Part shown: one piece after another, positions 51,642-57,667 of the stretch
How the letters are laid out: each line of letters begins with the position of its first letter
Position numbering within the stretch: position 1 is the first letter of the stretch
DNA from: Prosthecobacter fusiformis
GTDB taxonomy: Bacteria; Verrucomicrobiota; Verrucomicrobiia; Verrucomicrobiales; Verrucomicrobiaceae
NCBI RefSeq assembly: GCF_004364345.1
Contig: NZ_SOCA01000003.1
Location: forward strand, 372,001 to 436,000
Reading direction: 5' to 3'
DNA: 64,000 nt
Made by a program: the position numbers and the translations under genes
The notes under the pieces: model-generated
What the model was told of the DNA's origin: nothing
Seen by the model: the letters and a program-made list of their open reading frames with translations, nothing else
Databases searched by the model: none

Positions 51642-53540
51642 ATGTCATCTTCAAGTTCCACCCGTTCTCACTCCGAAATTTTCGAGAAAATCCCCGTTCA
51701 CGTTTTTGCCACTCCCACAGCCGCAGCCCGTGAGCTGGCTGCTGAGGTGCGACAACTGATTGAATACCGCAAGGCAGAAGGACGAAATGCCGTCCTGGGG
51801 CTCGCCACTGGCAGCACTCCAGTGCCCTTCTATCGTGAACTGATCCGCCTCCACCGGGAGGAAGGTCTCAGCTTCCAGAACGTCATTACTTTCAACCTGG
51901 ACGAATATTACGGTCTGGCCCCTGAACATCCGGAAAGTTACGCGCGTTTCATGGCGGAACAGTTGTTCAACCATATCGATATTCCCAACGAAAATATTCA
52001 CATTCCCAGCGGTCAGGTCCCAGGGAACCAAGTGTTCGTTCATTGCCGTGAGTATGAAGAAGCGATCGAGAAGGCAGGTGGTATTGACCTGCAAATCCTC
52101 GGAATTGGAAGGACGGGTCACATCGGCTTCAATGAACCGGGATCGAGTAAGGAATCCCTGACGCGGCGGATCACCCTGGACCGCATTACCCGACAGGATG
52201 CGGCGGGCGATTTTCGGGGAGAACAAAACGTCCCTCACTTTGCCATCACCATGGGCGTCGGCACGATTTTGCGTGGGCGCAAGTTGGCCCTCATGGCCTG
52301 GGGTGAAAATAAAGCGGGCATCGTCGCTAGGGCTGTCGAAGGATCGGTGACGGATACGGTGTCCGCTTCCTTTCTTCAGGAGCATCCAGACGCGCGGTTT
52401 TTTGTCGATCAAGGCGCGGCTTCAGAACTCGTGCGGTTCAAGCTGCCATGGCTCGTCGGTCCTGCCTCATGGAGTCCGGCGGAATCCATGCGTGCGGTCT
52501 GCTGGCTGAGCAAGAAACTGGGAAGGCCGGTGCTTAAACTGGTGGATGAAGATTACAACGAGAACGGGCTGTCTGATTTACTGAGCGAGCAGGGCCCGGC
52601 TTATCAGTTGAACATCCGCATCTTCAATCGTCTGCAAAACACGATCACAGGCTGGCCAGGTGGCAAACCCCACGAAGATGACACCTACAGGCCTGAACGG
52701 GCGAAGCCCTACCCCAAACAATGCCTGGTCTTCAGCCCAGAACCCCAGGATGCCGTGGTGGCCATGGCAGGCACCATGGAGCGTCTACAGGACCAGGGAA
52801 ACCATGTCTATCTGGCCAATCTGACCAGTGGCTCCCTTCGGGTGAGTGACAGTGAAGCGGATAAATTCGCAGGCACGCTGAATGAGCTGGCTATCAGCAC
52901 GGATGAGTCGGCCGCATGGCTTCCCCAAAAGGCGTATGCCGATGAAGTTCTGCGAATCCTTGCCGAGAAAGGCGAGGTCGGCGAAGACCCGGAACTGCTG
53001 CGGCGGCTGAAGGCTCTCATTCTGCGTGGTGAGTCCAGGGATGCCGCACAAGCGATTCACATTGCCTCCTCGGAGGTGAGTTTTCTGGATTTGCCTTTCT
53101 ATGAAAAGGGACGTTATCGCCGCTTCAAAACCACTGAGGAAGACGTGGTCGCCGTTGCATCACTTCTGCGGCAGCAACGCCCTAACCAAATCTATCTCAC
53201 TGGCCACAGCTCGGACCCCTCTTCGGTGTCTGCAATGACTTTTTCCATCGTGATGCAGGCCTTGCAACAATGCATGGGGGAAGACTGGCGCAGCGCGTGC
53301 AGCATCTGGATTTACTCAGGCAAGGAAAAGCCTTTTGCTCCGCATGAGATCGACATGGCGGTGCCAATGAGTCCCACGCAGATGGAAAGAAAGCAGCGTG
53401 CACTGGGCCGGTTTCAGCAACTGACTTCCCTGGAGGTGCAGGCTCCAGATCGTGACCGTGCCACCGCCCGGCATTATGATGACCTGGGGCTGGCTCAATA
53501 CGAAGCCATTGAGTGTTTCCAGCGCTGGCGCGCTGCGTAG
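51642..53540 (+). CDS. nagB: Glucosamine-6-phosphate deaminase fused to a degenerate PIG-L domain
   Basis: A 632-residue cytoplasmic protein. Residues about 17-275 form NagB, which turns glucosamine-6-phosphate into fructose-6-phosphate and ammonia: LATGSTPVPFYRELI, TFNLDEYYGL (Asp87), and LGIGRTGHIGFNEPGS with His160 and Glu165. Residues about 355-600 resemble a PIG-L (LmbE) deacetylase. However, the metal-binding HPDDE motif reads SPEPQDAV (365-372), and the later DPHGTHR-type motif reads DPSSVSAM (525-532), so all zinc ligands appear lost. This NagB/PIG-L fusion is known in Bacteroidetes with an intact second domain. Here the second domain is probably structural or regulatory. It links the locus to amino-sugar breakdown. 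Confidence 0.9.
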   Translation: MSSSSSTRSHSEIFEKIPVHVFATPTAAARELAAEVRQLIEYRKAEGRNAVLGLATGSTPVPFYRELIRLHREEGLSFQNVITFNLDEYYGLAPEHPESYARFMAEQLFNHIDIPNENIHIPSGQVPGNQVFVHCREYEEAIEKAGGIDLQILGIGRTGHIGFNEPGSSKESLTRRITLDRITRQDAAGDFRGEQNVPHFAITMGVGTILRGRKLALMAWGENKAGIVARAVEGSVTDTVSASFLQEHPDARFFVDQGAASELVRFKLPWLVGPASWSPAESMRAVCWLSKKLGRPVLKLVDEDYNENGLSDLLSEQGPAYQLNIRIFNRLQNTITGWPGGKPHEDDTYRPERAKPYPKQCLVFSPEPQDAVVAMAGTMERLQDQGNHVYLANLTSGSLRVSDSEADKFAGTLNELAISTDESAAWLPQKAYADEVLRILAEKGEVGEDPELLRRLKALILRGESRDAAQAIHIASSEVSFLDLPFYEKGRYRRFKTTEEDVVAVASLLRQQRPNQIYLTGHSSDPSSVSAMTFSIVMQALQQCMGEDWRSACSIWIYSGKEKPFAPHEIDMAVPMSPTQMERKQRALGRFQQLTSLEVQAPDRDRATARHYDDLGLAQYEAIECFQRWRAA

Positions 53541-53719
53541 GAAACGCGGGTCTTTCAAAAAAGTTGGCGGGTGCCTGCAATTTTTGCAACCGAAGGAAGC
53601 GCCAGGACATCCGCTTGATGACAGCACGTCTCCCCAACGTCCTTCACCGCCCCGATGAAGACGCGAAAGGAGAAGTGCTTTGCCGCCCTCACGAAACCTC
53701 AATCCCCTCAAGTTTCATC

Positions 53720-55495
53720 ATGGCCCATCTCATCCTGCATCATGCGTGCCTCCGGTCAGCACTCCATCTTATCAAGAAATGTCCCGCCTCTCTGCTGACG
53801 CTGGCGCTTCTCCAATCCCCTTTGGAGGCGGCCAGCCTCTGGTGGGATGCCTTGCCAAGCACGGCGAATGGAGCGTCGAATGCCGGAACGGGAGGATGGT
53901 TTACCACCGGCACTTGGGACAAAGGATCCGACAACGGATATCAGACCTGGGTGGATAATAATGATGCGATCATCAACGGAACTTCCACCGTTCAAATCAA
54001 TGCAAATGTCATCGCCAACACTCTGAGCGTTACTGGCAATGTCAACCTTCAGGCTCTCAATGCCACCCCTGTCATACCAGTCTTCACTCTGACAAACGGT
54101 GGCTCGATCGCCAATAACGCCACCATGAACTTTGGCGGAAATGCGACCACCGCGGGTGCTGCGCTTGATGTGCGTCTTGGTGGAGACATCAATACTAGCG
54201 TCACCGGAACCCGGGGAACCTTGACGCTTTCGGCTGGCTCCACCATTTCCTCCAATTTGACAGGAACGACGCGCACCATTTATGCCAATGTCAGTCTTGG
54301 CAATGGACCAGGCAGTTTCTTGGGAACTTTTGGCAACGTCGATTTGCCCGGCACCATCGCCATCAGCGGAAACATGGGAAGCGGTGGAGGCACGACGCGC
54401 ATTTTTGGGATCGCCTCCGGCACCACCGTGGAGGTGGCTGGTAACTATACCAGTTTGTCGGCAGGGGCGAGCGGAACGGGCGGTCTGCGGGTCCAAGGCG
54501 GTGGAACACTGAAGGTCAATGGAATGACAACGGGCGCTAATCCCGCACCCAATCTCGGTAATTTTATCGTCGGGACAGGGACGGATGCCACGACTCTGGA
54601 GTTGACCTGCAACGGTGTCATGACCAGCGCCAACAGCGATAACACACCAGGCATCGTGGGCACCATGGCCAGCAACATTACGATCGGTTCGGCCAACAGC
54701 ACCTTCCGCGTGAATTCCACTTTTAGCGGCTCGGCCACGGCGGGCGTGCAGACTATGTCCGGGGTGATCTCCGGCACTGGAAAACTCGTCCAGCAGGGTG
54801 CTGGCACACTGGCCCTGACCAATACCAACACCTACACCGGCACCACCACCGTCAGCGGTGGTGTCTTGCAGGTCGGCAGAGCGGGTGCGGGCAGCACTGG
54901 CACCGGGTCTGTCACCGTGGAGACGGGAGGGACCATCCTTGGCACCGGAATCGTTCGTGGCAGTTCATTCACGGCCCAAAGCGGCTCGATCATCCATGCC
55001 GGGGATGGTTTGGCTACGACGGATTTCGGGTCTTTGAGATTCACTCCCAGTTCTGGCAGTGGCAGCTTTAATTTTGCAGCCGGCAGTTCGACGCTTCTCG
55101 GTCTGAATCCTGGAGGAAGCGGGGATCTGTTAAGCTTCGATGGCCTCTCAGGAGGCACGCTCACTTTCAATGGAAATCTCACCATCACCGCACCTGGGTA
55201 TGTGCCGACATCCGAGGAGACATTCAACCTGCTGGACTGGGCAAATCTCACCACCACCTTCGCCAGCCGTTATGCATCGAGTTCCTACAGCGACTTTTTG
55301 CTTGGCAATGGCGATGACAATCTGGGCTTCGATCTCCCAAATATCGCAGGCTCCGGTTACGGGTGGGATATCAGTCAGTTCATCACCAATGGCACCATCA
55401 GCACCGTTTTTATCATTCCGGAGCCTGGCCGCACCAGCCTGATCTTTGGTGGCGTGTTTGGCTTGTGGATGCGTCGTCGTCGCCCGGTTGCCTAA
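53720..55495 (+). CDS. PEP-CTERM protein with autotransporter-associated beta repeats
   Basis: A 591-residue exported protein from the ATG at 53720, with a long signal (ending LALLQSPLEAASLWWD). The middle is Gly/Thr/Ser/Asn-rich parallel beta structure with an autotransporter-associated repeat at about 345-400 (GTGKLVQQGAGTLALTN, NTYTGTTTVSGGVLQVG). The C-terminus IIPEPGRTSLIFGGVFGLWMRRRR is a PEP-CTERM sorting signal: PEP, a hydrophobic stretch and basic end. Such proteins are cut by exosortase and released or anchored at the surface, often with exopolysaccharide. It may bind the polymer attacked by this locus. Confidence 0.9.
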   Translation: MAHLILHHACLRSALHLIKKCPASLLTLALLQSPLEAASLWWDALPSTANGASNAGTGGWFTTGTWDKGSDNGYQTWVDNNDAIINGTSTVQINANVIANTLSVTGNVNLQALNATPVIPVFTLTNGGSIANNATMNFGGNATTAGAALDVRLGGDINTSVTGTRGTLTLSAGSTISSNLTGTTRTIYANVSLGNGPGSFLGTFGNVDLPGTIAISGNMGSGGGTTRIFGIASGTTVEVAGNYTSLSAGASGTGGLRVQGGGTLKVNGMTTGANPAPNLGNFIVGTGTDATTLELTCNGVMTSANSDNTPGIVGTMASNITIGSANSTFRVNSTFSGSATAGVQTMSGVISGTGKLVQQGAGTLALTNTNTYTGTTTVSGGVLQVGRAGAGSTGTGSVTVETGGTILGTGIVRGSSFTAQSGSIIHAGDGLATTDFGSLRFTPSSGSGSFNFAAGSSTLLGLNPGGSGDLLSFDGLSGGTLTFNGNLTITAPGYVPTSEETFNLLDWANLTTTFASRYASSSYSDFLLGNGDDNLGFDLPNIAGSGYGWDISQFITNGTISTVFIIPEPGRTSLIFGGVFGLWMRRRRPVA

Positions 55496-56869: not shown

Positions 56870-57667
56870 ATGGACCGCCCTTCTGTTCTTGCCCTCTTCG
56901 CCCATCCTGACGACATCGAATTTTGTGCCGCAGGTACCCTGCTGATGCTGCAACAGCGCGGCTGGGATCTTCATTACTGCAACCTCTGCACCGGTCACGG
57001 TGGCTCCATCCAGATGGACGGACCGACAACCGCCGCCACCCGTCTCCAGGAGGCGAAGAATGCGGCGGATTTGCTGAAGGCGGCTTTTTATCCGCCCATC
57101 TCTGACGATCTCATGCTCACTTACACACCTGATCATCTGTGTAAGGTGGCCGCGATTGTGCGCCAGACTAAGCCCTCCATCGTCCTGACTCATGCTCTTT
57201 CCGATTACATGGAGGACCACATGAATGCAGCGCGCCTGGCGGTGACGGCGGCCTTTGCCCATGGCATCCCCAACTTCGTCACCCAACCGGCCACCCCTGC
57301 CTTTTTCCACGACGTCACGGTTTACCATGCCTTGCCCCATGGTCTGCGTGATCCTTTGCGCAGACAGGTGCGGGCAGGACAGTACGTGGACACCACCCCG
57401 GTGCATCAGCAGAAACGTGCGGCGCTGGCGGCACATGAGTCTCAGAAAGACTGGCTGGATGTGAGCCAGGGCATGGACTCTTATCTGGTCAGCATGGACG
57501 AGATGTCACGGAAGATCGGCAGCCTGTCGGGCAAGTTTGAACATGCCGAGGGCTGGAGACGCCATCTGCATCTTGGATTCAGCGCTAAGGAGATCGATCC
57601 TTTGAGCGAGGCCTTGGCGGAAGCCTGCATCGTGGACCCCGGTTATGAGCAGTCACTGGAGTTCTAA
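56870..57667 (+). CDS. PIG-L (LmbE) family deacetylase
   Basis: A 265-residue cytoplasmic zinc-dependent deacetylase. The metal motif AHPDDIE (residues 11-17) is intact, and ALSDYMEDHMNAARL carries the later His ligand. Family members remove acetyl from N-acetylglucosamine derivatives. The gene lies between an oxidoreductase and a transporter, each within about 30 bp, so they share an operon. It may supply the deacetylase function that the degenerate PIG-L domain of the NagB fusion has lost. Confidence 0.92.
   Translation: MDRPSVLALFAHPDDIEFCAAGTLLMLQQRGWDLHYCNLCTGHGGSIQMDGPTTAATRLQEAKNAADLLKAAFYPPISDDLMLTYTPDHLCKVAAIVRQTKPSIVLTHALSDYMEDHMNAARLAVTAAFAHGIPNFVTQPATPAFFHDVTVYHALPHGLRDPLRRQVRAGQYVDTTPVHQQKRAALAAHESQKDWLDVSQGMDSYLVSMDEMSRKIGSLSGKFEHAEGWRRHLHLGFSAKEIDPLSEALAEACIVDPGYEQSLEF

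Follow-up and report, generated by a model that had tools for sequence, protein, structure and literature searches.

The gene at positions 51642..53540 (+ strand) of the window, the 64,000-nucleotide stretch of Prosthecobacter fusiformis DNA analysed here, encodes a glucosamine-6-phosphate (GlcN6P) deaminase domain (NagB) fused to a PIG-L/LmbE-fold domain that has lost its zinc site. The dead state of this second domain is widely conserved, is maintained under purifying selection, and is accompanied by residues that have become invariant. From these sequence patterns, we propose, with a probability of roughly 0.45, that an active deaminase is joined to an ancient pseudodeacetylase whose refitted pocket takes up an anionic ligand and serves to control or organise the deaminase, with the deaminase activity, the ligand and the regulatory effect all being predictions.

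The open reading frame (632 amino acids) belongs to the PRK02122 NagB-PIG-L family over its full length, with residues 5-630 matching NCBIfam model PRK02122.1 (profile positions 17-651 of 653) at 752.4 bits against a curated cut-off of 384. Pfam assigns Glucosamine_iso (PF01182) to residues 24-245 and then PIG-L (PF02585) to residues 362-524, the latter at 40.9 bits with a cut-off of 28.2. An AlphaFold2 model likewise has two domains (mean pLDDT 91.7, pTM 0.87; the model of an intact relative has a pLDDT of 90.4). The NagB domain (residues 18-268; 51693..52445, + strand) was delimited by PF01182, by alignment to 2bkv and 1cd5, and by Foldseek, which returns NagB structures for the first half (2bkv, TM 0.96 by target length). 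It is followed by a conserved helical linker (residues 269-358; 52446..52715, + strand), recognised from the model and from conservation by domain, that carries an ITGWPGGK motif common to dead and intact fusions. The remaining domain (residues 360-629; 52719..53528, + strand) was identified by PF02585 and by a Foldseek match of the second half to diacetylchitobiose deacetylase 8bgo (E 1e-8), with which profile matches agree. Fold and profile match thus place it in the PIG-L superfamily by descent.

The initial annotation held that HPDDE had become SPEPQ and DPHGTH had become DPSSVS, and both changes can be read directly in this open reading frame. When aligned with intact fusions, which have S-P-H-P-D-D-D and D-P-H-G-T-H at these places, the window protein carries SPEPQD (residues 365-370; 52734..52751, + strand) in place of SPHPDD, such that the first zinc-binding His is Glu, the catalytic Asp is Gln and the second Asp is retained. 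Similarly, DPSSVS (residues 525-530; 53214..53231, + strand) replaces DPHGTH and both of its His residues are gone. The protein therefore lacks both the HPDD zinc/base motif of active PIG-L/LmbE N-deacetylases and the HxxH motif, which supplies the third zinc ligand. A further His kept by all 39 intact copies examined is F591 in the window protein.

To place these losses in context, 141 fusion copies were aligned, drawn from 56 relatives, 289 genomes within the phylum, a genome collection and four further loci. Dead copies number 102 (81 distinct at <98% identity) and intact copies 39. All 102 dead copies come from Verrucomicrobiota, are spread over many families and have lost the same sites, which bears out the earlier suggestion of a domain that is metal-dead yet retained (102/102 sampled verrucomicrobial copies of this type). 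The intact copies are from Bacteroidota and Balneolota, plus nine that belong to the window's own class (families f9 and f12), and one genome (G124) carries both an intact (L041) and a dead (L144) fusion. No dead form was present among the copies read from a separate 297-genome draw around Bacteroidota, where HPDDD (HMDDD in one case) and DPHGTH are kept throughout. In several of the Bacteroidota fusions (L205, L207, L209 and L211-L213), the NagB loop GNGHIGFNE[P/S]G replaces GRTGHIGFNEPG, with FNESGS in L211-L213. No viral relatives were found.

Prosthecobacter fusiformis itself has a second dead fusion (G000:C3:253439-255307), which is ~69% identical to the window copy and carries SPEPQD and DPSSVA. 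A KDPG-aldolase-like gene lies directly upstream of this second copy (L146:7347-9317, at ~253 kb of G000:C3) and a groEL-like gene further up, unlike the window fusion, which sits in a sulfatase neighbourhood. Across the dead clade, no conserved gene neighbours were found, with shared blocks occurring only within small groups.

These data also bear on the prospect that an unneeded domain is simply decaying, in this strain or lineage. The dead domain is indeed less conserved than NagB (48% versus 66% mean identity) and evolves ~1.5x faster than NagB in the same copies, whereas the two halves of intact copies evolve at about equal rates; some constraint has therefore been relaxed. However, within Verrucomicrobiales every sampled fusion is dead with the same substitutions, so that the close relatives with HPDDE that the initial annotation had named as its refutation were not found and strain-level decay is ruled out. 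The identical substitutions across the sampled families, the full-length open reading frames, a dN/dS of ~0.27 and the newly invariant residues all run counter to decay more generally, which the survey refutes and which we regard as extremely improbable. Rough dN/dS estimates, from overlapping pairs near saturation, are ~0.27 for the PIG-L domain and 0.18 for NagB in dead copies, and 0.29 and 0.30, respectively, in intact copies. Despite its relaxation relative to NagB, the dead domain is under clear constraint.

Moreover, the dead domain has conserved positions of its own, as revealed by comparing 39 dead with 26 intact representatives (<80% identity). E367 is present in 101/102 dead copies where all intact copies have His. 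A stretch that adjoins the LPFY substrate-loop segment, GRYRRF in the window protein (residues 490-495; 53109..53126, + strand), provides the signature of the dead clade, GRYRxF, in which R491 and Y492 (101/102 each) and R493 and F495 (102/102 each) are nearly or fully invariant but unfixed in the 39 intact copies. R454 and K443 (102/102 each) and R462 (100/102) are similarly constant, T520 (100/102) replaces an Ala found in all intact copies, and S528 (99/102) replaces a Gly found in 37 of 39. None of the E, GRYRxF, R454, K443, T520 or S528 states is fixed in intact copies. Basic and aromatic side chains, such as occur in pockets for phosphates or sugars, predominate among the added residues.

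The loops that formed the old pocket are the best-conserved part of the dead domain. Because the pocket set used at first included the just-noticed GRYRxF motif, the test was repeated without it, and mean entropy was 0.87 bits for the pocket loops versus 1.79 bits for the rest of the domain (0/20,000 permutations); these loops are defined by homology to PIG-L, and it is this loop homology that assigns the residues to the lining of one pocket. Since the clade-specific invariant set lies at and around the old pocket, the sequences indicate that the domain is refitted and not merely retained.

Another reading of the same residues is that the domain has kept an enzymatic function but altered its chemistry, with E367, D370 and D525 supplying carboxylates that would hold a different metal or support a metal-free reaction. 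Positions 367 and 525 are indeed acidic in 102/102 dead copies each, and position 370 in 100/102. Nevertheless, we judge this improbable because neither the old base position 369 (Q, S, H, L, T, M or A) nor the third-ligand position 530 is constrained, because H591 is mostly lost, and because two copies have H or N at position 370.

We instead favour a series of events in which the starting point would be a two-enzyme protein, a PIG-L/LmbE-type N-deacetylase and a deaminase, that persists in Bacteroidota and some Verrucomicrobiota. In an ancestor shared by most verrucomicrobial copies, the zinc site would have been dismantled (His to Glu, with loss of the Asp base and of HxxH), and the pocket would have gained its new invariant set of E367, R454, R462, R491-Y-R493-x-F495, T520 and S528. 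The most likely occupant of this refitted pocket is an anionic ligand, for which a sugar phosphate from the deaminase's own pathway is a plausible candidate, and the pocket would control or organise the NagB deaminase. Two observations weigh against this account, namely the faster evolution of the domain relative to NagB in dead copies and the apparent absence of the domain from Akkermansia-like lineages.

The main rival to such a ligand-binding, regulatory pocket is a purely structural role, wherein the dead domain holds the NagB assembly through an oligomer or domain-domain interface and its invariant residues form that interface without any ligand. Pseudoenzymes often turn into scaffolds, and conservation of the linker equals that of NagB in both dead and intact forms. 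In addition, it takes a neighbouring subunit to complete the active site of diacetylchitobiose deacetylase (Dac; PMC9779004), suggesting a tendency of the PIG-L fold to assemble at this very place. Conservation nevertheless centres on the old pocket loops, which speaks against a scaffold, although an arrangement like that of Dac could equally put these loops at a subunit interface. On balance, we regard a purely structural role as a serious but somewhat doubtful alternative.

A tree built from the NagB-domain columns places the intact copies on one side of a branch (99/98). The dead copies form either a clade or a grade; an AU test does not reject a single clade (p 0.23), and the shared sequence signature favours a single origin of the dead state. 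Twelve standalone NagBs from two families (f2 and f6) fall inside the dead Verrucomicrobiales part of the tree with moderate support (81/92). The standalone proteins that nest among dead-fusion NagBs (L060-L063, L148-L151 and L156-L158) include Akkermansia-like ones, a label that we infer for the f2/g2 proteins in part from a C-terminus, AASLL, encoded by a published Amuc_1822 primer. These Akkermansia-like NagBs probably arose by loss of the dead domain, and an order running from intact fusion to dead fusion to loss of the dead domain fits the tree. Versions with an intact domain, a dead one or none are thus all found in present-day lineages, and G124 carries an intact and a dead copy within one genome, so the passage from enzyme to pseudoenzyme can be put to a direct test.

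The intact PIG-L half may be a GlcNAc6P deacetylase that acts before the NagB half deaminates. We infer this candidate activity from the scarcity of NagA in genomes with intact fusions, with 14 of 19 such genomes outside Verrucomicrobiota (those of L112-L143) yielding nothing beyond short, weak NagA matches, and from MurQ-like or kinase-like genes (named from reading their sequences) near some intact fusions. The intact form may therefore explain GlcNAc6P deacetylation in many Bacteroidota that have no recognisable NagA. NagA-like matches of at least 140 bits, a line chosen after the matches were seen, occur in 28/34 dead-only but 9/26 intact-only genomes (Fisher p 0.0004). However, this contrast lies mostly between phyla and is not significant within Verrucomicrobiota alone (p 0.17), and NagA as a replacement for the lost deacetylase activity was consequently rejected. 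In several genomes of the order, a NagA-like gene overlaps a divergent NagB-like gene (as in L165:2550-4198; 247 aa, GIGENAHLAFND) while the fusion lies elsewhere in the same genome.

Near the window fusion, the separate intact PIG-L gene reported 3.3 kb downstream is real. It is a single-domain gene (56870-57667) that keeps HPDD and is BshB1-like, scoring 100 bits against a BshB1 cut-off of 182.5. A repeat-rich secreted protein with a PEP-CTERM-like tail at its end (IPEPGRTSLIFGGVFGLWMRRRR) is encoded at 53513-55495.

The first half of the window protein has both the fold and the catalytic residues of a GlcN6P deaminase. The NagB active site had been described as intact, and this holds for D87, H160, E165 and K224, which correspond to D72, H143, E148 and K208 of E. 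coli NagB. It does not hold for the equivalent of E. coli D141, where the window protein has T158; Thr is the rule at this position across the whole fusion family, and the structurally solved B. subtilis NagB aligns an Asn there. The two fusions are the sole NagB-type proteins found in the Prosthecobacter fusiformis genome. Given its catalytic residues and the demonstrated activity of a related standalone enzyme (PMC5902328), the window protein is predicted to be an active deaminase.

Comparison with known systems helps to place this protein. The solved E. coli NagB (1cd5) shares its deaminase fold and catalytic equivalents, but lacks a PIG-L domain. The two also differ at E. coli K160, a residue of the GlcNAc6P allosteric site, which aligns with Ile in the window protein. 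The Akkermansia muciniphila NagB, Amuc_1822, deaminates GlcN6P and is not activated by GlcNAc6P (PMC5902328); it is homologous to the window deaminase and to a standalone NagB placed beside the dead-fusion NagBs on the tree, and Akkermansia-like standalone NagBs share the active-site signature GRTGHIGFNEPGS, but Amuc_1822 lacks the second domain. The change of K160 to Ile and the unresponsiveness of the Akkermansia enzyme leave room for control of NagB by the second domain, or for no such control. A bolder proposal, which we consider rather unlikely, is that the former GlcNAc-type deacetylase pocket serves as a putative sugar-phosphate sensor replacing the GlcNAc6P allosteric site of NagB, and that these domains constitute a phylum-wide class of pseudodeacetylases. 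If true, the old enzyme site of the pathway would now regulate the next enzyme in cis.

For the second half, Dac (8bgo, 3we7; CE14 / PIG-L superfamily) is the closest solved protein in fold and sequence, but it retains a His-Asp-His zinc triad (PMC9779004), of which the window domain lacks two ligands along with the base Asp. The whole protein most resembles the Bacteroidota-type NagB-PIG-L fusion, PRK02122 / NF002557 ('glucosamine-6-phosphate deaminase-like protein'), in domain order, linker and length, with an identical NagB site (GRTGHIGFNEPGS). This fusion family is already known as an NCBIfam model, whereas no description of the fusion or of its dead GRYRxF-bearing branch was found in the open literature searched, although one may exist. 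Annotation of such proteins by PRK02122 or PF02585 does not imply a deacetylase. The PIG-L half of the window protein differs from that of the Bacteroidota-type fusion by lacking the zinc ligands and base and by carrying the clade-specific E367, GRYRxF, R454, T520 and S528.
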